Source of the DNA: an uncultured Pirellulaceae bacterium
Lineage (GTDB): Bacteria > Planctomycetota > Planctomycetia > Pirellulales > Pirellulaceae
Assembly (NCBI GenBank): GCA_938083195.1
Contig: CALKCK010000009.1
Span: forward strand, 310,001 to 374,000
Length of the DNA stretch: 64,000 nucleotides
Direction: 5' to 3'
Shown here piece after piece: positions 14,230 to 50,477 of the stretch (position 1 is the first letter of the stretch; each line of letters opens with the position of its first letter). The notes beneath the pieces are model-generated. The model did no database searches. It was not told the origin of the DNA and saw only the letters and a program-made list of their open reading frames with translations. A program made the position numbers and the translations under genes.

Positions 14230-14243
14230 TGCGGGAACCCGCA
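14230..14243. promoter_or_regulatory. 14-bp palindromic operator candidate upstream of flgB
   Basis: TGCGGGAACCCGCA, a 6-bp inverted repeat around AA, 53 bases before the flgB start. The same 14-mer (or its complement) is at 32925-32938 and 50464-50477, each in a flagellar control region. A 14-mer match in three intergenic regions is very unlikely by chance, so a dedicated regulator binding site is inferred. Confidence 0.68.
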
Positions 14244-14295
14244 ATCTTACTGCTACTTGTTCAGGGTTAAAGCCTACCCAACCGATCTAGGTAGT

Positions 14296-14646
14296 ATGAT
14301 CGGAAAAGTTGAACAATTCAGGGCGCTTCAAGAAGCAATTCAATTTGCCTCGCAGAACCATCGCGTCTCCAGTCAAAACCTTGCCAACATTAATACGCCG
14401 GGCTATCAAACCCGAGAGGTCAATTTTGACCAACTGTTGGCGAGACTAGACGGTGACACAAGCAAAATCACAACAACAAATTATGAAGTCAGCCAAGTCG
14501 ACGGCCTCGCCGAGCGACGTGATGGAAACAATGTTGATCTCGATCGCGAACTCGCTGCCTTAAAGAAAAACACATTGGCCTATCAGACTCTGACTCAACT
14601 GTTGGGATCGAAAATGGGAATCTTGAAACAAGCGATTAACGGTTAA
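14296..14646 (+). CDS. flgB: Flagellar proximal rod protein FlgB
   Basis: About 116 residues from the ATG at 14296, preceded by AGG at suitable spacing; an upstream in-frame TTG is less likely. It contains the rod/hook N-terminal motif variant SQNLANINTPGYQTREV and ends in a coiled segment (LAYQTLTQLLGSKMGILKQAI), typical of FlgB. FlgB is an early rod subunit just outside the MS ring, exported through the flagellar type III gate. It is first in a 12-gene plus-strand operon running to flhB. Confidence 0.95.
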   Translation: MIGKVEQFRALQEAIQFASQNHRVSSQNLANINTPGYQTREVNFDQLLARLDGDTSKITTTNYEVSQVDGLAERRDGNNVDLDRELAALKKNTLAYQTLTQLLGSKMGILKQAING

Positions 14647-14676
14647 GTCACCAGTCAACCTTGGGAAGTAGTTTAG

Positions 14677-15108
14677 ATGTTTAGCAACCTATTTTCAGCT
14701 GCCGATATTAGCGCATCGGGAATGTCCGCCGAGCGTCTGCGAATGGAAACGGTTGCCAACAACATTGCGAATGCAAACACAACCAGATCAGTCGACGGCC
14801 TTCCTTACCGCCGCAAACAACTTATTTTTTCAGAAATTCTTGACCCGCAGTCGGGCAGCACGTCAGGTCTACAGGGAGTTCGGATTCTCGGCATGGAAGC
14901 TGACCAGACTCCTTTTGAAACGGTACATAACCCTGGGCATAAGGACGCGGATGAAAATGGAATGGTAAAAATGCCCAACGTGCAAATCCCGAATGAAATG
15001 GTTGACTTAATCACCGCGAGTCGTTCTTACGAAGCAAACTTGAAAGCGCTTTCGTCTTTCAAAGACATGGTGGAACAAACGTTGACTTTACTGCGAGTCC
15101 CTAGATGA
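14677..15108 (+). CDS. flgC: Flagellar rod protein FlgC
   Basis: A 143-residue protein with the rod motif ANNIANANTTRSVDG near residue 30 and the conserved C-terminus NEMVDLITASRSYEANLKAL. Length is standard for FlgC, which forms the proximal rod with FlgB and FlgF. The ATG is preceded by a GGGAAG ribosome-binding site, and the stop overlaps the fliE start by four bases. Confidence 0.97.
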   Translation: MFSNLFSAADISASGMSAERLRMETVANNIANANTTRSVDGLPYRRKQLIFSEILDPQSGSTSGLQGVRILGMEADQTPFETVHNPGHKDADENGMVKMPNVQIPNEMVDLITASRSYEANLKALSSFKDMVEQTLTLLRVPR

Positions 15109-15416
15109 ACCCAATTGTACCGGCTTCGTCGATTCCTTCGCTGGATAATATTTCCAGTATTACCAATGGCAAAGGGGCAGCACGAAGTAACGGTGAAGGT
15201 GGTTTTTCAAAGCTGGTTGACAGCTTTGTACAGCAAACCAATGAAAACCAAGTGATCTCTGATCAGGCGATTGAAGACCTGGTGCAGGGAAAAACAGATA
15301 ACGTGCATCAAGTCGTATTGGCAGTCGCCAATGCCGAGATGTCATTTCAGCTATTTATGGAAATAAGAAATAAACTAATCGACTCCTATAACGATCTGAT
15401 GCGAATGCAATTTTAA
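15105..15416 (+). CDS. fliE: Hook-basal body protein FliE
   Basis: A 103-residue protein. It has a low-complexity N-terminus, the FliE-type core SKLVDSFVQQTNENQ, and a C-terminus VHQVVLAVANAEMSFQLFMEIRNKL that matches the family closely. FliE connects the MS ring and export gate to the rod. It overlaps flgC by four bases, and a 64-base gap separates it from fliF. Confidence 0.96.
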   Translation: MNPIVPASSIPSLDNISSITNGKGAARSNGEGGFSKLVDSFVQQTNENQVISDQAIEDLVQGKTDNVHQVVLAVANAEMSFQLFMEIRNKLIDSYNDLMRMQF

Positions 15417-15480
15417 TTGTCATTTGATTTTCGATTGGCATTGCCAATTTCCAGCGTAAGGATTCCGATTCGAGACACCT

Positions 15481-16991
15481 ATGCAAACTTTGAAATCCTT
15501 TCTAAACCAATCTCTCTTAATTTGGAGAGACTCTACAGGCGCTGGTCGAGTGGGGATTGCGTTGCTGCTCACGATCTGCGTTGGCGGTATTATTTCGGTT
15601 GGAATCTGGTCCGCCCAACCCAACTACGTTCTCCTCGCTCGCGACATCGATGACCCCACTCAAGCCGCAAAAATCATGGCGGCTTTAGATGCAGAAAACA
15701 TCACCTACCAGATCAAAGGATCCGGTACGATGATCATGGTAGGAGCGAGTAAATTATCTCGCGCGAGAATTGCCGCTGGAAAAGCCGGCCTTACTAGTTC
15801 CGGCAGCGAGATGGAAGAGATCTCTCCCTGGATGGATCCAGTCAGCCAACAGTATTACCTCAACACGAACCTTGAGCGTCGATTGAAAGTTGACATCGAG
15901 AAAATCAGGAGTGTTAAAACTGCGAATGTGCACTTAAGCATTCCCGAAAAACAGGCTTTCATCCGACAGTCCACCGATCCCACGGCGTCGGTTCTTATCG
16001 AAACGTCTCATCTTGAAAAATTCAATGAAGCGGATGCCGCTGCCATTGCTGACTTTGTCGCCTCCGCAGTTCCTGGACTTTTACCAAGTTCTGTTTCAGT
16101 TTCCGACACACTGGGAAACCAATACAGCACTGACACCGAGGGAATGAACCTCGGTAAAAAAGAAGAATTTGTTGCTGACCGAGAGAGCGCATTGAAGCGA
16201 AAGGCCGAGAATCAGCTCCGCAATCTTTTTGGATGGGGTAACTTTAATGTTGAAGTCACCGCTGATTACAAATTTGAAAATGCAGTTCAGGAGAGCCGCG
16301 AGCTGGGACCTGATAAATTTCTCATTCAGGAAAACATAAAACAGCAAATAGACATGGCAGCCGCGCCTGCTAACGGTATCGCGGGCACTGGTTCAAACCT
16401 TGTCCTTACACCCATCGGAACGGCCCCGCCCGCCGCGGCTAACAAGAGCCAACTAAGATGGAAGAGCAGGAAAGCAAATGGGATTTTTCAGAAAAAAAAC
16501 GAACCGAAACAATCGATGGCGCATTACTTAACTCGCTCTCAATTGCCGTCACGATCAACAAACAAGATCGGGATGCCACCCAAATCGCCGCGCTTAAAAC
16601 AACCCTCGAGTCCTCCATTGGCACCGCTTGCGGGGTGCGAATCGGCAAAGACCAAATCACCGTCGATTTCATCGACTTTGTTACCGAGGAACCGCTCGAC
16701 GCGGTGGTAACCAGCACGATTCCATGGGATCAAATCAATGAAATTTTGAAAAACATTTCGCTGGGCGTCGCTGCCTTGGTTGCCCTCTTTATCGCTCTTC
16801 GCACATTCAAAAAATTCCAACCCGATCCAATCGTCACGAGTGAAGCCGCTGCTGCTCCAACATCGCAATTGACACAATTAAGTGAATTGGTCAAACAGAA
16901 CCCTGAAGTATTCGCCAAGATCATTGATTCATGGGCCAGCCTCGAAACCGAGGCGGAAACCAAAGAAGAATCAACCACCGTAGCCGCCTGA
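15481..16991 (+). CDS. fliF: MS-ring protein FliF, interrupted by a frameshift
   Basis: The N-terminal part reads from the ATG at 15481: a membrane span, the ring-building YscJ-type domain (YVLLARDIDDPTQAAKIMAAL, SPWMDPVSQQ, LERRLKVDIEKI, NVHLSIPE) and the second ring-building region. From about 16443 the FliF similarity continues in the -1 frame (NSLSIAVTINKQ, then the C-terminal span LGVAALVALFIALRTF and a polar FliG-binding tail to 16991). The combined length, about 503 residues, is near normal. The original frame runs on for about 90 unrelated residues to 16710. The second frame is closed by a TAA at 16440-16442, so the change falls between there and about 16500. It is a one-base deletion, a sequencing error or recoding; an A8 run lies at 16492-16499. 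Confidence 0.9.
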
Positions 16992-17003
16992 GTCAAATAA
17001 GAC

Positions 17004-18017
17004 ATGTCATCGCTTTCAACAGAAGAACGACTCGCGCTATTGCTTAGCGTGCTAGGCCCCGATGCAGTTAACGCTGGATTGAAGAAGATGAACCCGACGC
17101 GCTCGAACTTCATCAAAAACTTGCTCAACGAATACAAAACCGATCCTCCCAGCGAAGAGGAAATCGAGTTTATTATCCGTGATTTCAGTCGATATTTTTC
17201 CTTCGCCATGAAGACGCTTGGCCCAGAAATCCATCAAGCTTCAACCGCACTTCGAATCGCGAAAAGAAAAAAACTCAAAAACCCAGAAAAACCGGTCACC
17301 CAATCGATCCCTTCTGAAGAACCCGTCGTCTTTGAAAAAATCGACGAGTCAGGCGACTATGTTCGTGACTTGAATCAACTCGATGCATTTCAAATCTCAA
17401 CTGCTCTCGCCGATGACAACGCCAAGACCGTAGCCCTCGTGGTCAATCTGCTGGAAACCCATCTCGCGGCCGAAATCATAAAAGAACTTGATGACCTCGT
17501 CCGAGATCAAGTCATTATTTACCTGAGTGAAGAAAGTGTGGTTCCCGAGAGAATCATCCAAGAGGTCCTAAAAACCACCTTCCAAAAAGCCAATGCGGTT
17601 ACGGTTAAAAAAGAAACCACCAATAGAATCGACACGCTGGCTGAATTGATGCGTTCGCTGCCCAAGGATATACGCAAAGGTCTCATTGAAAAACTCAATG
17701 AACGCGATGAGGAAATGGTACTCGCAATTCGAGCCAAACTTTATGTATTTGACGACATCCTTCGCCTGGATGACCGTGACACTCAAAAATTAATTGGCCA
17801 GACAAAATCTGAAATCCTTGCAGTCGCCCTCCAGCAGGCAGATCCTGACGTAGCAGAAAAACTATTTAAAAACGTTTCTAAACGTGCCCGCCAAGCAATC
17901 GAAGATGAAATGGAATACACCGTTGGGGCTAAAGGTCACGAAATCGAAGAAGCCCGTAAACAACTTGTCGATGCCATGGCCCGTTTAGATGAAGCAGGGG
18001 ACATTACATTGAACTAA
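17004..18017 (+). CDS. fliG: Flagellar rotor switch protein FliG
   Basis: A 337-residue protein of typical length. The N-terminal segment (STEERLALLLSVLGPDAVNAGLKKM) is the FliF-binding domain. The middle domain has the EHPQT-like region with LVVNLLETHLAAEII. The C-terminal armadillo repeats carry the charged torque helix region (FDDILRLDDRDTQKLI, then KLFKNVSKRARQAIEDEMEY), which contacts MotA. It is 12 bases after the fliF end and 2 before fliH. Confidence 0.96.
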   Translation: MSSLSTEERLALLLSVLGPDAVNAGLKKMNPTRSNFIKNLLNEYKTDPPSEEEIEFIIRDFSRYFSFAMKTLGPEIHQASTALRIAKRKKLKNPEKPVTQSIPSEEPVVFEKIDESGDYVRDLNQLDAFQISTALADDNAKTVALVVNLLETHLAAEIIKELDDLVRDQVIIYLSEESVVPERIIQEVLKTTFQKANAVTVKKETTNRIDTLAELMRSLPKDIRKGLIEKLNERDEEMVLAIRAKLYVFDDILRLDDRDTQKLIGQTKSEILAVALQQADPDVAEKLFKNVSKRARQAIEDEMEYTVGAKGHEIEEARKQLVDAMARLDEAGDITLN

Positions 18018-18019
18018 CT

Positions 18020-18559
18020 ATGATTGAACATCACGTACAATTCGGTCGCCAAGTCAAAAACTGCCGCTTTATCGATCGGTCAGCTCCGGCGACGCATACC
18101 GTCAATCCAGTCACCGCCGAAGTGGCGTCGGCGGCAGTCAATGAACGCATGAACGGGCTACTCGAGAACATAGCCACTGGAATTGACAGCATCGACCTCA
18201 AGACTGCCGAGTTTGCAGATGAAGTCGTTTCTCTTTCCATCTCCCTATCTCGCATCATCGTTGAAAATCTGATTGGTGAATCTCCGGAGCTCAAAGAAAA
18301 ACGCCTGACCAAAATCCTGTCCGAAGCACTCTCGCGTCCCGAAACACCCGTCGGTGTTTACGTCAATCCAATCAATCTGGATTCCATCAAAAAGAAAATC
18401 ACCGAAGACACGAACACCGAAGAAATAACCTTTCAAATTGACAACTCGATTGAGCCGGGGGAATGCCGGGTCGAGTTTGACACCTATGAACTACTTTCAC
18501 GAATGGAAACCCAGCTAGACGAAATCCAAGCTGGACTAACGGAGATCATTGATGAGTAA
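18020..18559 (+). CDS. fliH: Flagellar assembly protein FliH
   Basis: A 179-residue protein in the fliG-fliH-fliI position. The middle is helical and acidic (EFADEVVSLSISLSRIIVENLIGES), and the C-terminal domain contains VYVNPINLDSIKK and ECRVEFDTYELLSRME, a pattern typical of FliH/YscL stator-like proteins. FliH regulates the FliI ATPase and docks it at the C ring through FliN. It overlaps fliI by eight bases. Confidence 0.88.
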   Translation: MIEHHVQFGRQVKNCRFIDRSAPATHTVNPVTAEVASAAVNERMNGLLENIATGIDSIDLKTAEFADEVVSLSISLSRIIVENLIGESPELKEKRLTKILSEALSRPETPVGVYVNPINLDSIKKKITEDTNTEEITFQIDNSIEPGECRVEFDTYELLSRMETQLDEIQAGLTEIIDE

Positions 18560-19892: not shown

Positions 19893-19935
19893 TGAAATTT
19901 ACCGCGAGATGCGTCATTTGGGTTGAGAAGAACTA

Positions 19936-21134: not shown

Positions 21135-21187
21135 CCGTTTCAGCTAACAAAGCAATCCCCACCCCAGCGGCGAACAAGGATCAAGAC

Positions 21188-22218: not shown

Positions 22219-22245
22219 ATCGCAAACCTCTAAAATCAATCGGTA

Positions 22246-23310: not shown

Positions 23311-23363
23311 TCACTTTCGCCAACGATCTAACCAGCCAATCCGATGAACTCACCCCGATCCAG

Positions 23364-23395: not shown

Positions 23396-23410
23396 AGACC
23401 GCGATGTTGT

Positions 23411-26656: not shown

Positions 26657-27099
26657 TGTCAGCTTCAGAGGTAAGGGTCAAAAACGATTGCGGGATTAAT
26701 CCACTTAGCAAAGCGGATGCCACAGATTGCTTTTTCACTATTTTCTTCTTCCTACCAATAAAAACAGGGAAAACAAGCTGAATTAATTTCACCCATTTTT
26801 GGCGAAGATAGAAAGACTTTCACCGTCGGGGAAATTTTTGCCTTCAATTGATTCTGCGTAACGCAACTTAAATCTGCTAGCGGCCTCTGCCCCCAATCCC
26901 TCAGTGCCTACCGAATACGCCGAAAAGAAGCAGCTGGCGGCTGATTCCAATTCTTCAAAATCCAATTCTCTATTGACAGAATTCCTCGAATTTCGAACAA
27001 CCGTTTTTGGATAACGACCCAAGCCCTGAGAAGACAAACTTGAGCGTTGATTAATCCAACTAAACTCGACCCCACTCCATCCGTGGTACCAACGGCTCA
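26657..27099. other. Control region upstream of fliK and the response regulator
   Basis: About 440 bases between divergent genes. It contains a sigma-54 promoter for fliK (26706-26722) and a GCTAGC site (26876-26881) about 155 bases upstream of it. A 103-codon minus-strand reading frame lacks an ATG or GTG start and is not accepted as a gene. Confidence 0.55.
26706..26722 (-). promoter_or_regulatory. Sigma-54 promoter of the fliK-flgD-flgE operon
   Basis: Minus strand TGGCATCCGCTTTGCTA: -24 TGGCA and -12 TTGCT with exact GG-N10-GC spacing, matching consensus TGGCAC-N5-TTGCW closely. Transcription should begin about 12 bases downstream, leaving a leader of about 40 bases before the fliK start. 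The sigma-54 activator encoded at 27976-29043 is the obvious partner. Confidence 0.8.
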
Positions 27100-27786
27100 A
27101 TGATTTTCAGCACCCCAACGAATTCACTGATCATTTGCGCAACTGACGATCAGTCATTTGCGAATCGGATGAGCTATGCAGCCAAGTTGATTGATGCTGA
27201 GGCCTATTCTTCATCAACAATTGAAGAAGCCATCAACACCTCTAGGCAATATTTTTCACGCTGTTTAATCGTCGATTTTGATTTCTGGCACCGCGACCAG
27301 CTACATTTTTTAGACCGCTCAATTGCTAGAGAAACCCCTTTGCTGATCGCTACCCCATCCGGCGACATTAACGCTGCATTCATCGCGGGGGCGGCAGGCG
27401 CGATGGGAACCTTCGAAAAAGGTATTGAGCCCACTGAATTGGCACTGCTTTTCCAAGCTGCACTTCTCAGTGAACAAACGCTGCGAGAGACTCAACCCTA
27501 TGACAACCCAACGTTCAAAATCCTGAGCACTCGAGAAAAAGACGTCCTCACTTATTTAATGGCAGGCGAACCCAATAAGCGTGTGGCGTCTCTATTAGAT
27601 ATCGGACTTCGAACGGTAGAATCCGACCGCGCCCAATTAATGTCCAAACTCAAAGTCAATTCATTTACTGAACTAGTGAAAATGGTGACGGAGATTGAAA
27701 ATGACTTAGTTCTTACCCGTCAAAAAATATTCTGCGACATCTCACTTGGATTGATTACTTCCAACGTCGCCGCCACGGGTGAGTAA
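27100..27786 (+). CDS. FixJ/NarL-type response regulator
   Basis: A 228-residue protein. The N-terminal half is a slightly divergent receiver domain: acidic pair Asp16-Asp17, candidate phosphoacceptor Asp59 (LIVDFDFW), a TPSGD turn, and a Lys in GTFEKG. The C-terminal half is a LuxR-type helix-turn-helix (LSTREKDVLTYLMAGEPNKRVASLLDIGLRTVESDRAQLMSKL). No histidine kinase lies nearby. Its position in the flagellar control centre, divergent from fliK and convergent with the sigma-54 activator, suggests a role in flagellar transcription. The palindrome at 14230-14243 is a possible LuxR-type target. That link is inferred. Confidence 0.87.
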   Translation: MIFSTPTNSLIICATDDQSFANRMSYAAKLIDAEAYSSSTIEEAINTSRQYFSRCLIVDFDFWHRDQLHFLDRSIARETPLLIATPSGDINAAFIAGAAGAMGTFEKGIEPTELALLFQAALLSEQTLRETQPYDNPTFKILSTREKDVLTYLMAGEPNKRVASLLDIGLRTVESDRAQLMSKLKVNSFTELVKMVTEIENDLVLTRQKIFCDISLGLITSNVAATGE

Positions 27787-27975: not shown

Positions 27976-29043
27976 CTACTCGATACCGCACTCTTCAGAA
28001 TAGACCTTTAATTTGTTCGAGAGCGTTCGGGCAGTCACCCCTAATTCTTCAGCGGCTAGTCTTTTGTTACCTTGAAATTTTGAGAGTGACGAAAGTATTA
28101 AACGACGCTCAACCTCAGCCAGCGTCAGGCCGGCAAGTCCGTCGACATCATTTTCTTTGGCTAGGTAATTTTTCTTTGCGAGGCAATTCATCCCGATCTT
28201 TCCATCTACCGCAATCACGCAAGCTCGATGAATAACATTCCGCAGTTCACGGACGTTACCTGGCCAATGATAATCACACATCCACTGCATCGCTTCCTTG
28301 TCCACCTGTAGAGTTCCCGTCCGCGATTCCGATTGAAACAGGTTCACAAAATGCATTACAAGCAAGGGAATATCAGAAACGCGATCCCGCAACGGCGGAA
28401 GATCGAGTTCAAGTACGTTCAATCGATGGAACAAGTCATCGCGAAACCGGCCCTCAGCGACTTCGACCGCAAGATCACGATTGGTAGTGGCGACAATTCT
28501 CACGTCAATTGGTCGAGCAACGTTACTTCCCACAGGTTGCACTTCCTGCTCTTCAATGACCCGCAATAGCTTGGCTTGCATCGCGAGTGGAATTTCACTG
28601 ATTTCATCCAGCAAAATTGTTCCTCCTTGGGCTTGTTCGAAGTAGCCTACGCGTCCTACCGAAGCCCCGGTAAACGCTCCCTTTTCATGCCCAAAGAATT
28701 CACTCTCGATCAGTGACTCAGAAACCGCAGCACAATTGACGGCCACAAATCTTTCCTCCGACCGACCACTTTGCTGATGAATGAGTCGACTAAAGAGTTC
28801 TTTTCCGCTGCCGCTTTCACCCGTCACCAGCACAGTAGCAGAGCTCTTTGCATAAAGTTTGGCCAACTCAAAGAACTCACTCATTATCTTCGATTGAAAG
28901 GAGATATTACGAGCTCGTGAAGCCGGGTTAGGAGCCGCACTTGTTTTCACCGAATCTGTTCCGGGAAAGACAACGCTAAATGCAGACACCGCATCCGAGG
29001 ACGCCGACAGTTCATCAATTCGATTATTTAATTCGGGGAGCAT
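27976..29043 (-). CDS. Sigma-54-dependent flagellar transcription activator (FlrC/FleQ-like)
   Basis: A 355-residue protein. Residues about 50-275 are the AAA+ domain with Walker A GESGSGKE (75-82), the sigma-54 contact loop GAFTGA (122-127) and [13 protein letters not shown] (Walker B). The C-terminal Fis-type helix-turn-helix ([24 protein letters not shown]) is present. The first 45 residues are a low-complexity stub with no receiver domain, so control of its activity must come through partners or expression. It is last in a minus-strand operon with three flagellar-locus genes. Sigma-54 promoters upstream of fliK and flgF are its likely targets. Confidence 0.95.
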
Positions 29044-32773: not shown

Positions 32774-32855
32774 CTCGCGAACATCGTCGATTCAAACACG
32801 AATCGAGGGCCCAAAGCCTCCACCTAATCCATAGCTTCTGCGCAATCGTTAAAGT

Positions 32856-32876
32856 TGACTATTTCAGTCTATCGAA
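32856..32876 (+). promoter_or_regulatory. Shared TGAC-N8-TCTATCGAA element upstream of flgM
   Basis: TGAC (32856-32859), eight bases, then TCTATCGAA (32868-32876), as at 14125-14145 upstream of flgB and in the same orientation. A TTGACT sits at 32855-32860 but no -10 hexamer follows at standard spacing, and TAAA lies 4 bases before it, so it is partly like a sigma-28 promoter. Confidence 0.5.
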
Positions 32877-32910
32877 ACAAAAGGTCCGAAATCATAACCG
32901 GCATACTTCC

Positions 32911-32916
32911 GCTAGC
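32911..32916. promoter_or_regulatory. GCTAGC site in flgM control region
   Basis: The minus strand reads TTGCTAGCGG here. TGCTAGCGG recurs at the fliK (26876) and flgF/fliL (50314) control regions. It lies between the shared TGAC element and the 14-bp palindrome. Confidence 0.4.
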
Positions 32917-32924
32917 AAGGATTA

Positions 32925-32938
32925 TGCGGGTTCCCGCA
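32925..32938. promoter_or_regulatory. 14-bp palindromic operator candidate upstream of flgM
   Basis: TGCGGGTTCCCGCA, the complement form of the element at 14230-14243 and 50464-50477. It lies between the divergent TPR/STN gene (minus) and flgM (plus), so it could control both. Distance to flgM is 109 bases. Confidence 0.68.
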
Positions 32939-33046
32939 GGTGGAAAAGATCAAAAACACGTTCTCGATTTTTTTTTTGCTTTCTGAGAGCAAGTTTCCCC
33001 AAAGCCCTTCGATAACCCGCATGTCGGAAGAATATTAGAGGCAACT

Positions 33047-37534: not shown

Positions 37535-37619
37535 AGTGCCACCGCTCCGATGATTGATCTGTAGCAACGCTCGACTGGCAAACGATCTTGCAGCATCTAT
37601 CACTAATCAATGGATTGTT

Positions 37620-39530
37620 ATGTGTGGAATTCTGGGCATCATTACCGGCCCTAATGGCGACTTATTGGATGAGTCGAGGGTGCTTAGAATGCGCGACACG
37701 ATGGAGGATCGCGGTCCCGATGGAGCTGGATTTTTCCGTCACTCTCAGGTTACCTTAGCCCATCGCCGACTCGCGATTCGCGACATTGAACATGGTCAGC
37801 AGCCTTGGATTTCCCAAAATGGCAAATACGCCTTTGTTTATAACGGGGAAATTTACAATGACGATGAAATCACCAAATCACTTTCGGAAAATGGTGTCCA
37901 ACTTCGCACCCAATGTGACACCGAGGTCTTAGCCGAGGCTTGGTCTCTGTGGGGCAGGGCATGCCTTGACCGGATCCGTGGCATGTTCGCTTTTGCAGCG
38001 GTTGAACTCAGGACTGGCAAGACGTGGCTAGTACGTGATCGAGTCGGCATGAAACCGCTATTTTACGCTGCGATTGACGGTGACTTTGTATTCGCAAGCT
38101 CGATTGCCGCCATCAGAATGCACCCTCGATTTACATCGCAACCTAACCTGGCGACCATCTCTCACTACCTCCAAACGCTAAGAATCACCCTTGGACGAGA
38201 TACTGTTTTTCAAGGCATCTCCACTTTGCTGCCAGGTGAAATCGTCAGCTTCCAATACCCTGATTTAAATAGCGACTTCTACTGGGTTCCCCCCACGCAA
38301 ACAACAAAGCCCCGCCTCGAATTTGAAGACGCGGCGAACCAACTTGGAGATTCGCTAAAACAGACCGTTCAGCAACATCTGAAAAGCGATGTCACTGTCG
38401 GCATGATGATGAGCGGGGGCGTAGATTCCAACACATTGGCGACTTTGGTGAGACAAGAAACTGGCAGCAAAATGACAGGAGTCTGCGGAGGAGGAGTCGA
38501 CAACCTCTCTACCAATGAATCCGGTAGCGATTTTGAGTATGCACGCGTTTGCGCCTCTCACCTCGATTTTGACTATTCAGAAGTTCGCATCACCAGCCAA
38601 CAATATCTGGAAAGCTGGCAATCTCTCGTTGGCAAACTTCAATCCCCATTGGCAACCCCGACGGACACCATCATCTTTAATATCGCAAAGCACCTAAAAC
38701 AATTTTGCGGTGTTGCCCTTGGAGGCGAAGGGGCCGATGAAGCGTTTTGCGGTTACGCAACGCAACATTGGTCGGGCAACGACTTTGACCGCGCCCAGTG
38801 CATGGACCAATTAAACGACCAACAACAAATCGAATTTAAAAATGGCCTAAATCAGCAATATGGTCGAGACAATTTCAGCTCGTTGGCAGAGCACTATCTG
38901 GCATCCAATGGCTTGATTCCATGGAGTGCGCAAAAAGCACTCTTCCGACCAGAATATTATTCAGACGAAATCCCCCAGAGCATCAACTCCCATTACCAAC
39001 AGATGTTCGATGCCCATGGAAATATCCCTTCCGCAGAAAAATATGCCGGTGTGTTGATAAGTGTCAATCTCGAAAGCCTTTTAAGGCGGCTCGATACGGC
39101 GACGATGGCTGCCAGCCTCGAAGCCCGAGTGCCCTTTGCTGATCATGTCGTTATTGAAAATGCTGTCCAACTTCCCCACCATTACAAAATAGACCTCGCG
39201 CCGAGCGAAAAATCGCCGTGGCTTAACTCCCTCGCTTTATCCCAGCGCGGCAGTCTCCGTTCCAAACGAATCTTACGGTCGGTAGCGTCTGGCCTCATGC
39301 CCGCCGAACTCGCACAACGCCCAAAAATGAGCTTCCCAACTCCACTTCCGCGCTGGCTGAGCTCCGATTGGCAACCGTGGATCAAAGAGAAACTCGCAAG
39401 TAGCGATTTTGCAAACACTCTCTTTCGGCCCGAAGCACTTGCTGAAGTCGCGAACTTTCCCGATGGGCTTTCACTCTGGAAATGGCCGTTAATCAACACC
39501 ATCCTCTGGGGTGATCAGTGTTTCAATTAA
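37620..39530 (+). CDS. asnB: Glutamine-dependent asparagine synthetase
   Basis: The correct start is the ATG at 37620, which gives a class II glutaminase with catalytic Cys2 (MCGILGII); an earlier in-frame ATG would bury it. It has 636 residues. The glutaminase domain has GPDGAGFF, HRRLAIRD and YNGEIYN. The synthetase domain begins with the AMP-binding MSGGVDSNTLATL near residue 265, then GEGADEAFCGY. The reaction is aspartate + glutamine + ATP to asparagine. AsnB paralogues also act in surface-polysaccharide or amidation pathways. It lies 156 bases after fliS in the same direction; its role in the island is unclear. Confidence 0.92.
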   Translation: MCGILGIITGPNGDLLDESRVLRMRDTMEDRGPDGAGFFRHSQVTLAHRRLAIRDIEHGQQPWISQNGKYAFVYNGEIYNDDEITKSLSENGVQLRTQCDTEVLAEAWSLWGRACLDRIRGMFAFAAVELRTGKTWLVRDRVGMKPLFYAAIDGDFVFASSIAAIRMHPRFTSQPNLATISHYLQTLRITLGRDTVFQGISTLLPGEIVSFQYPDLNSDFYWVPPTQTTKPRLEFEDAANQLGDSLKQTVQQHLKSDVTVGMMMSGGVDSNTLATLVRQETGSKMTGVCGGGVDNLSTNESGSDFEYARVCASHLDFDYSEVRITSQQYLESWQSLVGKLQSPLATPTDTIIFNIAKHLKQFCGVALGGEGADEAFCGYATQHWSGNDFDRAQCMDQLNDQQQIEFKNGLNQQYGRDNFSSLAEHYLASNGLIPWSAQKALFRPEYYSDEIPQSINSHYQQMFDAHGNIPSAEKYAGVLISVNLESLLRRLDTATMAASLEARVPFADHVVIENAVQLPHHYKIDLAPSEKSPWLNSLALSQRGSLRSKRILRSVASGLMPAELAQRPKMSFPTPLPRWLSSDWQPWIKEKLASSDFANTLFRPEALAEVANFPDGLSLWKWPLINTILWGDQCFN

Positions 39531-39828: not shown

Positions 39829-40743
39829 GTGAATAACACGATCCTTAACCTCCCGAATACCGATTCGAAACGAAAGCTAACTGAACAACTCATACAAACG
39901 GCCCGAGACATCAAGATGCTCCCGGACATTGCCCTCAAGGCGATCGAAATTGCTGACAACCCCAACGCCAGCACTCAAGAATTCGCAAACATCATCGCTC
40001 AAGACCCACGGCTAACCCGAGATATTCTGTCGCTATCCAACAGCCCATTATTCCCCCGCGCCCCCGGCGTCAAACCTATTTCGTGTCTGAAAATGGCAAT
40101 CAACCGACTGGGTTCACGCCAAACCAAACAAATGATCCTCGTCTCATGCTATTCCAGCATGCTAAATCAAATGGACGTGGATGAAGTTCAGGTCCGTGAA
40201 ATCCTTGGCCGGCATAGTTTTCTAACTGGTGTGATCAGCACCAAATTGAACAAGCTATTTAATCTTGGAATTCAGGGTGAGGAATTCACCGCCGGCTTGC
40301 TACATGATGTCGGCAGAATCCTATTGGCCACCGCTGCACCAGAAGAATTCAAAGCACTCGATGCAATGGACTTCAGCGAACGCCATGACGTCATCCGTGC
40401 CGAAATTGAATACATTGGGACCTCGCACGCCGAAATTGGTGAGTGGTTCTTGCTTCGCAACCACCTCCCTGAAGAACTAGTCAGCGTCGCCCGGCATCAC
40501 CACAACCCTGCTGAGTCGGGAAAATTCAAACGATTCGTCGCCCTGATTTCGGTCGCCGACGATCTAGCCAATTACTATCAACGCAAAGAATTAGAAACAG
40601 AATACGACTGCTCTGACCTCGCAAGTCTTCGTCTTTTGGAGACCCTCGGGGTCACCGATCCAATCGCAAGACTAACCGAAGCATGGCCAGACATATTAAG
40701 TGATTCCGTCGACAGCTCCAGCCAACTTTCTCGGCTTTCGTAA
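39829..40743 (+). CDS. HDOD domain signalling protein
   Basis: A 304-residue protein with a GTG start, consisting of an HDOD domain (IAQDPRLTRDILSLSNSPLF ... CLKMAINRLGSRQTKQMIL ... AGLLHDVGRILLATAAP ... HAEIGEWFLLRNHLPEELVSVARHHH). HDOD proteins are linked to cyclic di-GMP and virulence or motility control in several bacteria. There is no catalytic GGDEF or EAL domain. It sits between asnB and the convergent flgL. This is the second HDOD gene of the window, the other being the HDOD-GGDEF gene near the stator operon. Confidence 0.88.
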   Translation: MNNTILNLPNTDSKRKLTEQLIQTARDIKMLPDIALKAIEIADNPNASTQEFANIIAQDPRLTRDILSLSNSPLFPRAPGVKPISCLKMAINRLGSRQTKQMILVSCYSSMLNQMDVDEVQVREILGRHSFLTGVISTKLNKLFNLGIQGEEFTAGLLHDVGRILLATAAPEEFKALDAMDFSERHDVIRAEIEYIGTSHAEIGEWFLLRNHLPEELVSVARHHHNPAESGKFKRFVALISVADDLANYYQRKELETEYDCSDLASLRLLETLGVTDPIARLTEAWPDILSDSVDSSSQLSRLS

Positions 40744-42323: not shown

Positions 42324-42327
42324 TGAA

Positions 42328-44286: not shown

Positions 44287-44295
44287 TTTTTCACT

Positions 44296-44898: not shown

Positions 44899-45005
44899 TA
44901 GTCTCTCTTCACGGTAACTTTTGTAACTGCCTAAATACTTATTTAACTAATCAAAAATTCGAATCCCAATTTTGTCGCACCGCCTAATCGGCTTGGCCCA
45001 ATTCG

Positions 45006-45437
45006 CTACTCACCAACTGGTGAATTCTGGCTGTAGACTTCAGCAACCTTTGCGATTTCAACCTTTGCGATTTCAACCTTTGCGAGATCAACACCGCCCG
45101 ACACCCCTTCCAAGTGTGCCTTGATTGTGTCGCCAATCCCTAAAGGACGCGACTCTGAAAGATGTTGTCCCATGAACATATCAAACATACCACCATAAGT
45201 ATCACTGCCATCCCCGCCAAACAAACCACCTTCATCGCTGTCGAGAGTATTCCGCATTTCCTTTAGCATCAGCGAGAGAAAAACGGATTCAAATTCGTTC
45301 GCTGCTTTTTCGATGGCTGCATTTTCGGTTTCGGCTTTGATGCGACCCTTGGCCATCTGCAGAGCTTCGACATCCGCCCCAACCTGATTAGCCATCACCT
45401 GTGATAGGCCGATCGAATTTCCAACACCGTCAATCAT
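45006..45437 (-). CDS. flgJ: Rod-binding protein FlgJ (N-terminal domain only)
   Basis: A 143-residue protein with the rod-binding domain (EKAANEFESVFLSLMLKEMRNTLDSDEGGLFGG). There is no muramidase domain, as in many non-enterobacterial forms, so a separate lytic enzyme must clear peptidoglycan. The C-terminus contains a threefold repeat of VEIAK made by a 15-bp tandem repeat in the DNA. Confidence 0.88.
   Translation of the reverse strand: MIDGVGNSIGLSQVMANQVGADVEALQMAKGRIKAETENAAIEKAANEFESVFLSLMLKEMRNTLDSDEGGLFGGDGSDTYGGMFDMFMGQHLSESRPLGIGDTIKAHLEGVSGGVDLAKVEIAKVEIAKVAEVYSQNSPVGE
45045..45089. repeat. 15-bp tandem repeat inside flgJ
   Basis: Three copies of AACCTTTGCGATTTC (third slightly diverged) at 45045-45059, 45060-45074 and 45075-45089. 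In frame, it encodes a repeated VEIAK-type five-residue unit at the FlgJ C-terminus. Slippage could vary the copy number without breaking the frame. Confidence 0.9.
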
Positions 45438-45511
45438 TTTGAATCTCTCGTAATAAGTTTCACTTTGACGTTAACCTGAAACAACTCACTCTTCCAACCA
45501 CTGTTTTATCA

Positions 45512-46756
45512 CTACTCAATTATTAACTCTGCTTGCAAAGCCCCCATGTCTCTGGCTTGAAGCAGAATCGGAATAAGATTTCGCGGGGGCACTCCAAGCT
45601 GATTTAATAAAGTAGCTAAATCGCGAACCGTTGGTTGCTCTTCCATCAATGCGTAATTCCCTCCTGATTCGGTCACATTAATTTCGGTATTAGGAGTTAC
45701 TACCGTCTCTGCGCTTCTGGGGGCGAAAGCACCAGGCAGGTAAACATCGGGAGTTTCTCTGACCTTCACGACTAGATCCTCATAGCCAAAAGCAAACGTC
45801 GACAATTTGACGTTTTCACCAATCACAATCGCGCCGGTAGACTCATTCACGATGACAATGGCTTGGCTGTCGGTGGTCACTTTAAGCTGTTCGATTTGGT
45901 TGACAAACTTCAGCTTGTTATTTTCAAATTCAGCAGGAAAACAGACCTGAACGACCCCGCCATTGAGCCCTCGCGACGCTCGCGGGAAAACTGCATTGAT
46001 GGCTTCTTCGATCGCAACCGCGGTGCCTCGATCTTTGTTTAACAGTAATAAATCGAAAGTTTTTCCCGAAAATGGCGACTCATTTTGCAACGCCCGCTCA
46101 ATTTGAACCGTAACTTTCGCCTTGGTAGGATGATTCTTCGTGATGTCTGCACCATCTCCTTTAGCCGAGAACCCCCCAACGACCAATTCCCCGCTTGCGA
46201 CTGCATAGGCATCTTTACTACCTATGGGAAAAAGCAGAGCACTCTGTAAATATCCCCCAAACAATGACGTCGCCTCATCCAGCACTGACACCGTCCCGGT
46301 TAACGTCTCTCCTTCTTGGTAGTTGGCAGGCACGTCGACTGAGATGTTAACCAGCGCGACGCCACCCTCAGCTACATCAGCGATATTTAAACCCCATCGC
46401 TTGTAATAATTCCGTAGTTCCTGCGCCGTATCCTCCGAGTTACTCCCGCCCGCGCCCAATCCAGTGACCAAACCGCGGCCTTCCAAGGTATTGGTTCGAT
46501 CGGAACTAAGTCGCGTTATGTCCTTGACTCGGTGCCGTACTGGATCGACCGAGACTGATTTCTCCACATCCCGACTTCCGGCTTGAGGGGCCGAGGGGCT
46601 TTCCTCGAGAGCTTGTGGGGCCGAAGGGCTTTCCTCGAGAGCTTGAGGTGCCTGACCGTGGCATACCGGCCCTACCCAAGCGAAGACGCAGCAACCCAAC
46701 AATGCAAGCGTGAAACGAGTTGTAAGTAATTTGGTTATGAGCATCTTAGAATCCAT
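45512..46756 (-). CDS. flgI: Flagellar P-ring protein FlgI
   Basis: A 414-residue protein with an N-terminal signal peptide (LALLGCCVFAWVGPVCHG). The mature part has FlgI signatures: VKDITRLSSDRTNTLEGRGLVTGL, NYQEGETLTGTVSVLDEATSLFGGYL, and the C-terminal PTVRDLATLLNQLGVPPRNLIPILLQARDMGALQAELIIE. Between signal and mature domain, the ten-residue unit PQALEESPSA is tandemly repeated from a 30-bp DNA repeat (46581-46652). FlgI forms the P ring around the rod in the peptidoglycan. The presence of P and L rings implies an outer membrane. Confidence 0.95.
   Translation of the reverse strand: MDSKMLITKLLTTRFTLALLGCCVFAWVGPVCHGQAPQALEESPSAPQALEESPSAPQAGSRDVEKSVSVDPVRHRVKDITRLSSDRTNTLEGRGLVTGLGAGGSNSEDTAQELRNYYKRWGLNIADVAEGGVALVNISVDVPANYQEGETLTGTVSVLDEATSLFGGYLQSALLFPIGSKDAYAVASGELVVGGFSAKGDGADITKNHPTKAKVTVQIERALQNESPFSGKTFDLLLLNKDRGTAVAIEEAINAVFPRASRGLNGGVVQVCFPAEFENNKLKFVNQIEQLKVTTDSQAIVIVNESTGAIVIGENVKLSTFAFGYEDLVVKVRETPDVYLPGAFAPRSAETVVTPNTEINVTESGGNYALMEEQPTVRDLATLLNQLGVPPRNLIPILLQARDMGALQAELIIE
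46581..46652. repeat. 30-bp tandem repeat inside flgI
   Basis: Two full copies (46581-46610 and 46611-46640, two differences) plus 12 bases of a third. In frame, it duplicates a Pro/Glu/Ser-rich linker of FlgI. Confidence 0.88.
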
Positions 46757-46802
46757 TCCAGTTCATCTCATCTAGGTAAACGCGTCACTCATCGCGATCA
46801 AT

Positions 46803-47465
46803 TTAATATGGCCACCAGCGATTAAATTTCCGCCCTAACCATCCCTGATTAAAAAAGTGCTTCTCAACACCTTCTTTTGGATCGGTTGCATAACGTATTT
46901 CCAAATCTCCAATATCCTTCGACGAGATTTGATTACGCACGCTAATGTCGACAGAGCGAACAATCCCCGTAAGAATTAACTCCCGACCATCCCCCTCCAT
47001 TGAAACCATTCGTTTCCCGCGAATCAGTAGATTGCCATTTTGAAGACGGTCGACCACTGAAACGGTAAATCGATCCGAGAAATCTCGCTCACTCTTGTAT
47101 CTCGTGTCACCCTGAAAATCTCGATCGGCCGTGGCATTGGCATTAGCAGTCAAACCGCCAACGCCCGTTCCAATACCTCCTGCGAGAGCATAATCTCCTG
47201 AGTTCGAGGTGTTCGCCGAATTTGATTTCCGCAACAACCGATTGTCTTTATTTTCAATCTTGGATTTTTCTTCAATGACCACAGTTAATAAATCGCCCGG
47301 CTGCCTCGCCTTAACGTCACCGAATAGGCTGGCACCGCCTCCCCTTATTCCTCTTTCAAAAAATGAAGGCGTTTGAGCGACTGCTGAATCTAGCGAACCT
47401 CCCAAAACTGCGATGGCAAGTAGAGGGAAAATATAAAAAATCGTTCGAGAGTAGCTTTCGAACAT
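46803..47465 (-). CDS. flgH: Flagellar L-ring protein FlgH
   Basis: About 220 residues from the ATG at 47465, which has AGGTGAG upstream; the GTG at 47477 is less likely. It has the FlgH core (PGDLLTVVIEEKSKIENK ... GTGVGGLTANANATADRDFQGDTRYKSERDF ... LLIRGKRMVSMEGDGRELILTGIVR). The signal peptide ends AVAQ and there is no lipobox cysteine, whereas FlgH is usually a lipoprotein. The L ring may be anchored differently in this lineage. Confidence 0.9.
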   Translation of the reverse strand: MFESYSRTIFYIFPLLAIAVLGGSLDSAVAQTPSFFERGIRGGGASLFGDVKARQPGDLLTVVIEEKSKIENKDNRLLRKSNSANTSNSGDYALAGGIGTGVGGLTANANATADRDFQGDTRYKSERDFSDRFTVSVVDRLQNGNLLIRGKRMVSMEGDGRELILTGIVRSVDISVRNQISSKDIGDLEIRYATDPKEGVEKHFFNQGWLGRKFNRWWPY

Positions 47466-47522
47466 TGAATGTCTCACCTAAATAATAACCATTAAAAAAA
47501 GTCATACCCAACAATCAAAAAC

Positions 47523-48608
47523 TCAATCAATCAAAGCAGAGTACGCATCCAGAACTCGGGCCTTGGTTTTTCTCTTAGTTCGAGGATGAATGAACTCAAT
47601 CCTCTCTCCCAAAGCTCCGTCGGACAAAGCCTTTACATTTTTCAATTCCACACTCAAACTTCCGCTTCGAGCAATTACGTCGATAAGAGTGTTGCGTTTA
47701 ACTAGGATTCTCTCACTCGCTTTGATGCGACTTACACTTGAAGGCTTCAGCAATGCATACTTTTCTAAATCCTTGGTCGTTGTTTTCCCAAGTGCGTTTA
47801 CATAAGTCAGAAAGCTGCTGCTTGTTGTTCGTGTTGAAACCAATCGTCGCTCGGATTTAAGATTCTTAAAAGTCAGTTCGGTGCCCACGGGGATGTCTTC
47901 CTTTGCCACTGCAAAATCCCGGTACACCGACACTTTTGCTCGCACCCTAAAAACGACTTCTGACTTTGCCGTAGTATCAATCATCCCTGCAAACAGCTGA
48001 TTCCCCAGTGGCAACTCAGCTCGACCGATAGGTAGAATTTTCAGAGAACTCAAGCCGGCGATATCAGTTGGGAAATTCGTCACCTGTTCCACATTTACGT
48101 GTAAATCTGAGTCAGCAATCGAATACTCTTTTAGCAAGCTCCGCCGTAAAACATCGGCAAGGTATTTCTCAGGCTCAAACGCTTCAACGTCCAACGGTTT
48201 TACTGCATTAAGCTGCCTTGCCATGACTTCCACTGCTCTCGCGCCACCCGCTGTGACATGCTTCGCCTTGATCACCTTAACTGACGAAGGGCCAACAATT
48301 TCAAAATCGCTCAGTCGATAACCCGCAAGCCGCAAACGTATTCCCAGTTGGCTACTCGAGATCGACAATTCGTTCTCGGTACTCGAAAACTCATCGATAT
48401 CGATAGCGCCAATTCGGCTAGCAACCCCAACCTGCTCACACTCGATCTCGGCAATTTGATGAAGATGAATGATCGAATTGGGAATCGCGACCACATTGTC
48501 GGTTACTTTTAAACGAACCGGCGGCCTGCCTTCTTGCGCAAAGACGACGGCACCAAGACTGATAAGCCCAATGAAAATTTGCAGGATGAATCTTTTACTA
48601 CGCATCAT
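47523..48608 (-). CDS. flgA: P-ring assembly chaperone FlgA
   Basis: A 361-residue protein with a signal peptide, long for the family. The C-terminal half is the SAF-like FlgA domain (AVAKEDIPVGTELTFKNL; KYALLKPSSVSRIKASERILVKR; GSLSVELKNVKALSDGALGERIEFIHP). It aids FlgI assembly in the periplasm. It lies 9 bases after flgG in the operon. Confidence 0.9.
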   Translation of the reverse strand: MMRSKRFILQIFIGLISLGAVVFAQEGRPPVRLKVTDNVVAIPNSIIHLHQIAEIECEQVGVASRIGAIDIDEFSSTENELSISSSQLGIRLRLAGYRLSDFEIVGPSSVKVIKAKHVTAGGARAVEVMARQLNAVKPLDVEAFEPEKYLADVLRRSLLKEYSIADSDLHVNVEQVTNFPTDIAGLSSLKILPIGRAELPLGNQLFAGMIDTTAKSEVVFRVRAKVSVYRDFAVAKEDIPVGTELTFKNLKSERRLVSTRTTSSSFLTYVNALGKTTTKDLEKYALLKPSSVSRIKASERILVKRNTLIDVIARSGSLSVELKNVKALSDGALGERIEFIHPRTKRKTKARVLDAYSALID

Positions 48609-48617
48609 TTTCCTAAA

Positions 48618-49406
48618 CTATCGAACGATCTGGGCGGTGGTGGAAAGCATTTCGTCACCCGCCTTGATCGCGCGGGAGTTAATCTCATAAGCTCGCTGAG
48701 CTGTAATTAGTGAAACCATTTCCGAGACGACCTCGACGTTCGAACTCTCCAAACTCCGCGATTGAATATTTCCGAATCCATCAAGGCTAGGCGTCCCAGC
48801 AATCTCTTGACCGGATGCTTGGGTTGCTTCGTAGAGGTTTCCACCGGCTTGGCGCAAACCAGTTGGATTTGCAAAACGAAAAAGCTGAATCTGCCCAAGT
48901 TCAACAGGTTCAGGTTCACCCTGTTGCTGGATGCTTACAACACCACTGTTTGAGATGCTAATCTGCCCCCCCGTATTTGGAATAGTAATACCTGGGTCGA
49001 GTCGATAGCCTTGAGAATTGACCAGTTCTCCGAAGGCATTTTGTGTGAATGAACCATCTCGGGTGTAGCCAATCAAACTCCCAGAGTCTATCACTTTGAA
49101 GAAACCTTCTCCCTTAATAGCCATATGGGTATCAATGCCATCCTCAATGGGAGCACCCTGTGTGAAGACGTTGGTGGTTCCCGTGGCCCGAACACCATTG
49201 CCAATTTGCAGCCCGATGGGTGCCACTTGGCCATCGCCGATGGGAGCGCCGGGAACTTTAGAAACATCGTAGATCAAATCAGAAAACTCCACGTGACTCT
49301 TTTTGAATCCAGTGGTGTTTACGTTGGCAAGATTGTTGGCCGTATTATCGATCAACAATTCCTGAGCTCGCATTCCAGTTGCACTGGTAAAAAACGCTTT
49401 CAGCAT
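48618..49406 (-). CDS. flgG: Distal rod protein FlgG
   Basis: A 262-residue protein. It starts LKAFFTSATGMRAQELLIDNTANNLANVNTTGFKKS and ends SNVEVVSEMVSLITAQRAYEINSRAI, both textbook FlgG. Length is typical. It follows flgF, as expected. Confidence 0.97.
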   Translation of the reverse strand: MLKAFFTSATGMRAQELLIDNTANNLANVNTTGFKKSHVEFSDLIYDVSKVPGAPIGDGQVAPIGLQIGNGVRATGTTNVFTQGAPIEDGIDTHMAIKGEGFFKVIDSGSLIGYTRDGSFTQNAFGELVNSQGYRLDPGITIPNTGGQISISNSGVVSIQQQGEPEPVELGQIQLFRFANPTGLRQAGGNLYEATQASGQEIAGTPSLDGFGNIQSRSLESSNVEVVSEMVSLITAQRAYEINSRAIKAGDEMLSTTAQIVR

Positions 49407-49443
49407 AACTCAATCCTTACTATTAACACGCTTGTCTTCGTTG

Positions 49444-50193
49444 TTATGAATTAATGTTCTCTTTGACTGCATCTGAGATTGCGCGAATCGCTTTCTGAGC
49501 TGATTCGACTCCTCGTGATCCAACAATCAGACTGATCAGTTCCGTCACCGGGTGAGCATTGGAAAGTTCTCGGTAACCCTGCATGACTAACGGATTTTCA
49601 GCAGGCGTCAGCGTTGCTTCGCCAAGCTTAAAGTAAATTTGACTATTGGATTCAACTTCACCGGCATTCAGCAATTGATTGTTGTCGAACTGAACCACAT
49701 TCAACTGACCAATCTGTATTCCACCCCCAGCAATCGTTCCACCTGCAGAAATCGTGCCGTCCGGTTGGATCTGAATATCCCAATCCGAAACCTCTGGCGG
49801 AATCACGATAGGCTGGTTCCCCTCTCCCAATACTGGCAACCCGTCACCATTCACTAATTGCCCTTGGGAATCTCGAAATAGCACACCGTTACGCGAATAC
49901 AACTCCGCTTCTGCGCCCTGATAAACTAAAAAACCATCACCACCAATTGCAACATCAAGCTTTCGATCTGTTGATTTCTTAGGCCCCGCTTCAAAATCAG
50001 TCGCCACTGAACTAATACCCGAGCCAGGATAAGATCCCACCACTCCGTCTACCTCCGCAACATGCTCCTCAAACGTAAGCAACTGCCGCCTATAACCAGG
50101 GGTGTTCAAATGCGCAAGATTTGACGAGATCACCTCCTGCTGGCGGCTGTAGTTCTCAAGGGCCGTCGCGCCACTATAAATTCCGTTGAACAT
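49444..50193 (-). CDS. flgF: Proximal rod protein FlgF
   Basis: A 249-residue protein with the rod motif (QEVISSNLAHLNTPGYRRQLL) and the C-terminal HPVTELISLIVGSRGVESAQKAI. It is first in a nine-gene minus-strand operon (flgF, G, A, H, I, J, N, K, L). A good sigma-54 promoter lies 38-54 bases upstream of the start. Confidence 0.92.
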   Translation of the reverse strand: MFNGIYSGATALENYSRQQEVISSNLAHLNTPGYRRQLLTFEEHVAEVDGVVGSYPGSGISSVATDFEAGPKKSTDRKLDVAIGGDGFLVYQGAEAELYSRNGVLFRDSQGQLVNGDGLPVLGEGNQPIVIPPEVSDWDIQIQPDGTISAGGTIAGGGIQIGQLNVVQFDNNQLLNAGEVESNSQIYFKLGEATLTPAENPLVMQGYRELSNAHPVTELISLIVGSRGVESAQKAIRAISDAVKENINS

Positions 50194-50230
50194 TTTTTAC
50201 TCGTTTCCAATTGGTAAGCATCGCCACCAA

Positions 50231-50247
50231 TGCAATCGAGAGGCCAA
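50231..50247 (-). promoter_or_regulatory. Sigma-54 promoter of the flgF operon
   Basis: The minus strand reads TTGGCCTCTCGATTGCA: -24 TTGGC and -12 TTGCA with exact GG-N10-GC spacing. Start of transcription should be about 12 bases after the GC, giving a short leader before flgF at 50193. Its enhancer may be the palindrome group 70-260 bases upstream. Confidence 0.75.
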
Positions 50248-50313
50248 TGCAGGCCATATTGAGAATTTCAACGCAGATAATTTCAAAATCGCTTAGATCA
50301 AAGGAAATTGCCC

Positions 50314-50319
50314 GCTAGC
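50314..50319. promoter_or_regulatory. GCTAGC site in flgF/fliL control region
   Basis: The minus strand reads GTGCTAGCGG. The 9-mer TGCTAGCGG also occurs at 26875-26883 and, on the minus strand, in the flgM region near 32911. It is a candidate binding site about 70 bases upstream of the flgF sigma-54 promoter. Confidence 0.4.
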
Positions 50320-50463
50320 ACTGTTCACTTAAACGATTTGGTAAACCTTAACGATGGAAAGGATTTCCTTGATGAGGAAAACTTTACCTATTTGAGAAGA
50401 TCCACTCAAAACAGCCGCCCCAAACTAAGACCAGTCCGGAAAAATCAGTACATTCCTCCTAAC

Positions 50464-50477
50464 TGCGGGAACCCGCA
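50464..50477. promoter_or_regulatory. 14-bp palindromic operator candidate upstream of fliL
   Basis: TGCGGGAACCCGCA, identical to 14230-14243. It is about 175 bases before fliL and about 220 upstream of the flgF sigma-54 promoter, so it could act on either operon. Confidence 0.7.

Follow-up and report, generated by a model that had tools for sequence, protein, structure and literature searches.

A palindrome at three divergent flagellar control regions of a Pirellulaceae bacterium, the probable operator of a FixJ-type response regulator

A 64-kb stretch of DNA from an uncultured Pirellulaceae bacterium (GenBank assembly GCA_938083195.1, contig CALKCK010000009.1, positions 310,001 to 374,000; the whole stretch is called the window below, and positions are counted from its first letter) harbors a flagellar island in which the 14-bp palindrome TGCGGG-N2-CCCGCA occurs exactly three times, each time between two divergent operons. 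The site, its uniqueness in the genome, its conservation in relatives and its co-occurrence with a FixJ/NarL-type response regulator encoded in the island (27100-27786, forward strand) are established here. We propose, with a probability of about three in four, that the palindrome is the operator of this regulator. To our knowledge, hardly anything has been described about the regulators behind the switch of planctomycetes between flagellated swimmers and attached cells. Here the operator and the candidate protein are both defined, and relatives that have neither serve as a natural control, so that the circuit is open to a direct test. The island is, in addition, a small and self-contained example of how a regulator and its sites can turn up jointly inside a single genus.

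Position and rarity of the palindrome

The palindrome was noticed in a preliminary description of this DNA, which listed three intergenic copies beside the starts of flagellar operons, considered their repetition by chance extremely unlikely and took them for the operator of a dedicated flagellar regulator. All three copies lie exactly where that description had put them, and each of them moreover lies between two divergent operons. Operator 1 (14230-14243, TGCGGGAACCCGCA) is found in the control region 13708-14295 between motA on the reverse strand and flgB on the forward strand, 52 nt ahead of the likely flgB start codon (ATG at 14296); this codon is better placed than the TTG at 14257, and the site is upstream with either. 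Operator 2 (32925-32938, TGCGGGTTCCCGCA) is found in the region 32774-33046 between a TPR gene (reverse) and flgM-fliC-fliD-fliS (forward), with the expected start of a sigma-28-like promoter about 90 bp further downstream. Operator 3 (50464-50477, again TGCGGGAACCCGCA) is found in the region 50194-50537 between flgF (reverse) and the operon beginning with fliL-fliM (forward). The GTG at 50538, with which the fliL frame opens, is probably too early a start, because the relative G022 (our handles for genomes begin with G) has a stop codon in that stretch.

Some details of the earlier picture have to be amended. The second copy had been called a complement form of the other two; the site is present, but '-TT-' and '-AA-' are reverse complements of each other, so that the two forms are one and the same site read from opposite strands. 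The gene to its left had been named TPR/STN, of which Pfam finds the TPR part and no STN domain. The assignment of flgM to its right is weak, with Pfam FlgM E-values of 0.1 for the window protein and 0.0069 for its ortholog in G010, neither of which reaches the curated cut-off; it is in keeping, however, with the position before the flagellin gene and with a sigma-28-like promoter that is conserved there.

In 100 dinucleotide shuffles of the window the exact palindrome turned up 0.01 times on average and at most once, which bears out the earlier judgment on chance. When up to two mismatches were allowed, the count in the window stayed at three and the shuffle mean rose to 1.9, so that at this looseness the number is unremarkable by itself. 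A genome-wide count, which the preliminary description had suggested, was made in the whole assembly (G000; 4,805,638 bases in 68 contigs, about 92% complete): TGCGGG-N2-CCCGCA occurs at the same three places, all of them flagellar control regions, and at no others, and the reversed pattern, used as control, occurs once. The probability that three randomly placed copies would hit each of these three intergenic regions once is about 3e-12. Many copies at random positions, named beforehand as the result that would speak against an operator, were thus not found.

Looser patterns do not extend the picture beyond the island. TGCGG-N4-CCGCR occurs 9 times on the forward and 9 times on the reverse strand of G000, as compared with 5 and 5 for its reversed control. 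The counts of site and control are of the same order in the seven other site-bearing genomes, one of which, G010, has 3 and 3 against a larger control of 14 and 13, its flagellar sites not fitting this pattern. With counts so near to the control a wider regulon is not defensible, and we confine the claim to the three flagellar sites. The 8-letter core GCGG-N4-CCGC, with 49 occurrences in G000 against 55 for its control, is uninformative genome-wide and informative only at orthologous spots.

Conservation in relatives

A search of 37 genomes for FlgB gave 12 that have it, nine of them from the same-genus group of 28. Seven are close flagellated genomes (G000, which is the window's own, G003, G007, G008, G017, G019 and G022), and G010 is a more distant eighth. 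A lack of conservation in relatives had likewise been named as evidence against an operator; in all seven close genomes, however, the three spots are occupied by the palindrome, either exactly or with one change. Operator 1 is identical in 7/7. The flgM-region site is exact only in the window's own genome and differs in the other six at the last base alone (A to G), and the fliL-region site is exact in four of the seven, the other three having one change at position 6 or 9. The six close genomes other than the window's own have nine exact copies between them, every one at flgB or fliL.

In the more distant G010 the spots aligned to operators 1 and 3 read TGCGGTAGTCCGCC and TGCGGGGGACCGCC, respectively, and the intergenic region between the TPR gene and flgM-fliC contains AGCGGTCCACCGCA, about 80 bp further upstream than operator 2. 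All three G010 regions thus have the core GCGG-N4-CCGC, for which the probability by chance is about 6e-8 (43 such words in 4.1 Mb). Taking the three regions in eight genomes together, the core is present in 24/24 sites, T at position 1 in 23/24 and A at position 14 in 16/24. With the core invariant in all 24, the palindrome is very probably a real operator, an assignment that we would put above nine-tenths certain.

The same invariance bears on the alternative that the palindrome functions in RNA, as a leader structure or terminator, rather than as a DNA site. TGCGG-N4-CCGCA allows a hairpin with a 5-bp stem and a 4-nt loop; with 15-nt flanks the folding z-scores of the three sites are -2.3, 0.0 and -1.8, which is weak or no excess. 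Since the four core pairs are unchanged in all 24 sites, the letters themselves have been kept and there is no compensatory change. One of the sites lies upstream of the flgM promoter, no T-run directly follows any of the stems, and a scan for terminators, made of the flgB region alone, gave no terminator-like site. We rejected this explanation as very improbable.

The response regulator and its distribution

The protein encoded at 27100-27786 has a receiver-like N-terminus and a C-terminal helix-turn-helix of the GerE/LuxR type (PF00196, residues 141-196, E 7e-15, 54.8 bits as compared with a gathering score of 23.5). Pfam gave no receiver match for the N-terminus at E <= 0.001. The profile of the protein nevertheless aligns along whole response regulators, with query residues 13-201 on 1yio and 55-196 on FixJ (5xso), and the residues D16/D17, D59, T85 and K107 could be fitted by eye to those of a receiver. 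D59 and K107 are invariant in eight orthologs; G010 has other residues at D16/D17 and at T85, and G003 also at T85. Against the NCBIfam FixJ equivalog PRK09390 the protein scores 70.9 bits, the cut-off being 255, and it is therefore called FixJ-type rather than FixJ. The recognition helix, GLRTVE[SG]DRA, is the same in all eight orthologs.

Among 35 flagellin-bearing genomes tested, orthologs of the regulator (E <= 1e-97) are present in exactly the eight that bear the sites, and are located there in the flagellar cluster. The other 27 have no ortholog, the best profile match in them having an E-value of 4e-21. Core and regulator were both looked for in genomes with 26 flagellin loci. GCGG-N4-CCGC lies within 1.5 kb upstream of flagellin at 7/7 loci with the regulator as compared with 1/19 without it (Fisher p 1e-5, not corrected for kinship). 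Four further flagellin loci, making 30 altogether, are from genomes not tested for the regulator and have no core within 1.5 kb upstream. The cleanest contrast is given by G025 from the same genus group, which has the sigma-54 activator described below and the hook promoter and lacks both the regulator and all three sites; its fetched flagellar cluster contains one core word only, near flgA (L092:18898).

The operator of a dedicated flagellar regulator, as proposed in the preliminary description, is thus a reading supported by uniqueness in the genome, by conservation in seven of seven close genomes (the window's own included) with a diverged form in an eighth, and by the lack of the core at 18 of 19 flagellin loci where the regulator is missing.

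The sigma-54 activator and its own promoters

Two proteins had been suggested as readers of the palindrome, the FixJ-type regulator and a sigma-54 activator from the same island. We favor the former, the distribution of which matches that of the sites. The latter (27976-29043, reverse strand) is FlbD-like, with the GAFTGA motif and a Fis-type helix-turn-helix, and the palindrome could be its enhancer (upstream activating sequence): the activator is encoded in the island, it is conserved in the eight site-bearing genomes, and sigma-54 activators of this kind bind palindromes. However, the activator is also found in many relatives that lack the site. In nine genomes without an ortholog of the regulator (G025, G075, G082, G101, G104, G118, G133, G228 and G239) it lies on the contig of flagellin, and in all nine the 1.5 kb ahead of the flagellin gene examined contain no core; G101 has one core word 1.7 kb from flagellin, within a TPR homolog. 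A strong match to the activator (E <= 1e-80) was not found in G035, G080, G083, G163 and G241. Its recognition helix, [GS][VI][ST].R[TS][LI]..K[LIVM], was extracted from 11 of the 19 loci and is similar in all 11 relatives, those without the palindrome included; 10 of the 11 have no regulator.

The activator rather appears to have promoters and sites of its own. The best sigma-54 promoter of the island is that of the hook operon fliK-flgD-flgE (26707-26722, reverse strand, TGGCATCCGCTTTGCT), an operon that lacks the full palindrome and has tandem GAAAG/CTTTC-like repeats instead. Matches at the corresponding place are present in G010, G025, G075, G101, G228 and G239, and the strict sigma-54 pattern had no match there in the sequence taken from G104, G118 and G133; in the relatives this pattern was used without a shuffle control and also matched away from the hook operon (e.g. 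in L096, L192 and L194). A second, less perfect promoter-like sequence precedes the flgF operon (50231-50246, reverse strand, TGGCCTCTCGATTGCA), its -24 and -12 bases being kept in all seven close genomes. As a scan of the window with two mismatches gave 33 matches, the number expected being 33, only these two conserved promoters were used. Beside the palindromes, on the flgB or the fliL side, the strict pattern found no sigma-54 promoter.

The tandem palindrome-like repeats lie at 26811-26842 (GAAAGACTTTC / GGGGAAATTTTTGCC), about 90-120 bp ahead of the sigma-54 promoter of the hook operon, and at 50356-50388 (GGAAAGGATTTCC / GAGGAAAACTTTACC), about 110-140 bp upstream of that of flgF. They are conserved in the close relatives and in G010 can be recognized by eye on alignments only. 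Simple patterns for such repeats also match elsewhere in the window (GGAAA-N1-4-TTTCC at 2725; GAAAG-N0-3-CTTTC at 583, 15042 and 20816) and do not match within the control region of hook or flgF in either G010 or G025. Judging from their position and conservation, these repeats rather than the 14-mer are probably the upstream activating sequences of the activator, which probably acts on the hook and flgF operons. That the palindrome is its enhancer we regard as quite unlikely.

Comparison with known systems

The ComA box of Bacillus subtilis consists of two inverted TTGCGG hexamers with a 4-nt spacer (TTGCGG-N4-CCGCAA) and is read by the response regulator ComA, which is placed in one family with NarL (PMC4797271). 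Direct-repeat half-sites adjoin the ComA box. The TGCGG-N4-CCGCA of the window sites equals the core of this box. Two of the three window sites also have the outermost A of the right arm (CCGCAA); none has the outermost T of the left one (TTGCGG), so that the core is there but the full hexamers are not. ComA, a regulator of the NarL/LuxR type, has the same type of helix-turn-helix as the regulator proposed here, and its DNA-binding domain matches that regulator weakly in the profile comparison (E 0.025); ComA differs in serving a quorum response instead of flagella and in coming from another phylum. The resemblance is one of site geometry suiting the family and does not make the window protein a ComA. 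The closest solved relative of the regulator is FixJ, with E-values of 4e-14 for the single sequence and 9e-18 for the profile. FixJ controls nitrogen fixation.

Flagellar master regulators of the LuxR-FixJ superfamily have been described from rhizobia and Agrobacterium, namely VisN and VisR (PMC4018554), and a small NarL/FixJ-type regulon over flagellar genes is therefore a type of system already known. VisN and VisR likewise command flagellar genes but are thought to work as a pair and indirectly via Rem and have N-termini unlike those of other LuxR-family regulators; in the window there is one protein, with a receiver-like N-terminus, and the sites are directly at structural operons. With systems built on FlbD- or FleQ-type sigma-54 activators the island shares an FlbD-like activator and the sigma-54 promoters of the hook and flgF operons, but the distribution of that activator and its probable sites are not those of the palindrome.

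In a limited search of the open literature we found no description of this regulator, its site and its restricted distribution, no flagellar operator for the planctomycete phylum, and no paper pairing both half-site strings with a palindromic binding site. The expression data in an excerpt of PMC2754498 include rpoN and several genes of the flagellum, and the excerpt contains no mention of a flagellar operator.

Points that weigh against the assignment

Several observations speak against the palindrome being the operator of the regulator at 27100-27786. (i) The fourth divergent control region, between the hook operon (reverse) and the response regulator gene (forward), lacks a full palindrome, and hence there is none at the regulator's own promoter or at the hook operon. 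(ii) The G010 sites each retain just one full TGCGG arm. (iii) The nearest solved relative of the regulator is FixJ (E 9e-18) rather than ComA (E 0.025), the box of which the sites resemble, and FixJ is not known to bind target sites like TGCGGG-N2-CCCGCA. (iv) Regulator and sites may have come or gone together in a single evolutionary event; given this and the kinship of the genomes, the 7/7 and 1/19 loci are not independent samples.

(v) Exact palindromes also occur singly in genomes in which FlgB was not found. Of 60 genomes searched, 26 have exact copies (the window's own counted), and seven of the 27 other same-genus genomes (G002, G006, G009, G012, G014, G015 and G016) have a lone copy, FlgB having been found in none of these seven; tblastn with the flagellar genes of the window gave no match at the loci of these seven. 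Such copies here and there in relatives without FlgB are what favors a chance repetition or a genomic repeat. A single stray copy is accordingly not rare; three within one flagellar island are. The shuffle mean of 0.01, the flagellar location of all three genomic copies and their conservation contradict this explanation, which we consider practically negligible.

(vi) G035 has no ortholog of the regulator and yet has GCGG-N4-CCGC upstream of flgB (GGCGGGCACCCGCC) and between the TPR gene and fliC (GGCGGGGACCCGCC); it is the one locus of the 19. Both words are of the form GGCGGG-N2-CCCGCC (L097:12953 and L098:2026). They may be due to chance, because the G+C-rich genome contains 930 core words, or they may be a variant operator read by another protein.

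These words also lend some weight to the alternative that a different regulator, likewise dimeric but with its gene outside the island, binds the palindrome. Regulators are numerous in bacterial genomes, unlinked control of flagellar genes is common, and linkage of regulator and site is not proof. Against this stand the nearly identical distribution of the sites and the linked regulator in the genomes tested and the type of site, which fits the DNA-binding family of that regulator. We regard an unlinked reader as unlikely.

Proposed mechanism

In the mechanism that we propose, the LuxR-type helix-turn-helix of the regulator at 27100-27786 would read, as a dimer, two inverted TGCGG half-sites lying four bases apart, with one dimer site for each of the divergent hubs motA/flgB, TPR/flgM-fliC and flgF/fliL. 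In answer to a phosphorylation signal the regulator would thereby co-ordinate the operons for rod, MS ring, motor and export, for flagellin, and for switch, export and FliA. Binding, reading as a dimer, activation and control by phosphorylation are all inferred. The regulator most likely acts as an activator at these sites, and less likely as a repressor, because the conserved block of the flgB region begins about 10 bases before the site and runs down to the gene, the stretch ahead of the block being largely unconserved. This layout, with the site 52 nt before the start codon and the block beginning near it, would suit an activator beside the promoter core. The rightward operons are those most likely activated, the leftward ones possibly too. 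The hook operon would be left mainly to the sigma-54 activator, and flgM-fliC would additionally have its sigma-28-like promoter.

What has come about looks like a small lineage-specific regulon added onto an older sigma-54/sigma-28 flagellar cascade. It is an even bet, in our opinion, that the following rewiring took place in one Mariniblastus-like clade of the Pirellulaceae: a FixJ-type regulator came to lie next to the hook operon, operators of a matching, ComA-box-like form arose at exactly the three divergent hubs, which cover nearly all other flagellar operons of the island, and an environmental phosphorelay was thus set over the older sigma-54/FliA cascade, which sister lineages (e.g. 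G025) run without it.

Further features of the control regions

The sigma-28-like promoter of flgM-fliC (32991-33015, forward strand) reads AAGTTT-N11-TTCGATAA, and its elements are kept in all seven close genomes and largely in G010. The textbook sigma-28 pattern with three mismatches found nothing before the three rightward operons, this promoter included. One sigma-28 promoter type for all three was considered and dropped: a convincing conserved one is present at flgM-fliC only, and flgB and fliL share just a CGAT core.

Just downstream of the hook sigma-54 promoter lies a lone half-site-like word (26688-26696, forward strand, TTGCGGGAT), of which TGCGGGA is kept in 7/7 close genomes; it is possibly a weak single-arm site.

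The word GCTAGC has 6 copies in the window, a number at chance level, of which five (14115-14120, 14148-14153, 26876-26881, 32911-32916 and 50314-50319) lie inside the four divergent flagellar control regions, which make up 2.6% of the window. At least one copy per control region is invariant in all seven close genomes, and CCGCTAGCA, on either strand, is common to three of the regions. No 7-mer other than GCTAGCA is kept throughout the four regions, and none of 1000 letter shuffles produced such a word. In G010 a single GCTAGC lies in the motA/flgB region (L095:5175), the other control regions being without any; the control regions of G025 have none. GCTAGC is possibly the site of a further regulator.

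Between motA and flgB a block of about 140 bp (13760-13900) is conserved in seven genomes and overlapped by an 83-aa frame (13829-14080); it could be the motA promoter region, a small RNA or a small gene. Inside the flagellar island there are also a gene for an asparagine-synthase-like amidotransferase (37554-39530) and one for an HDOD-domain protein (39829-40743).

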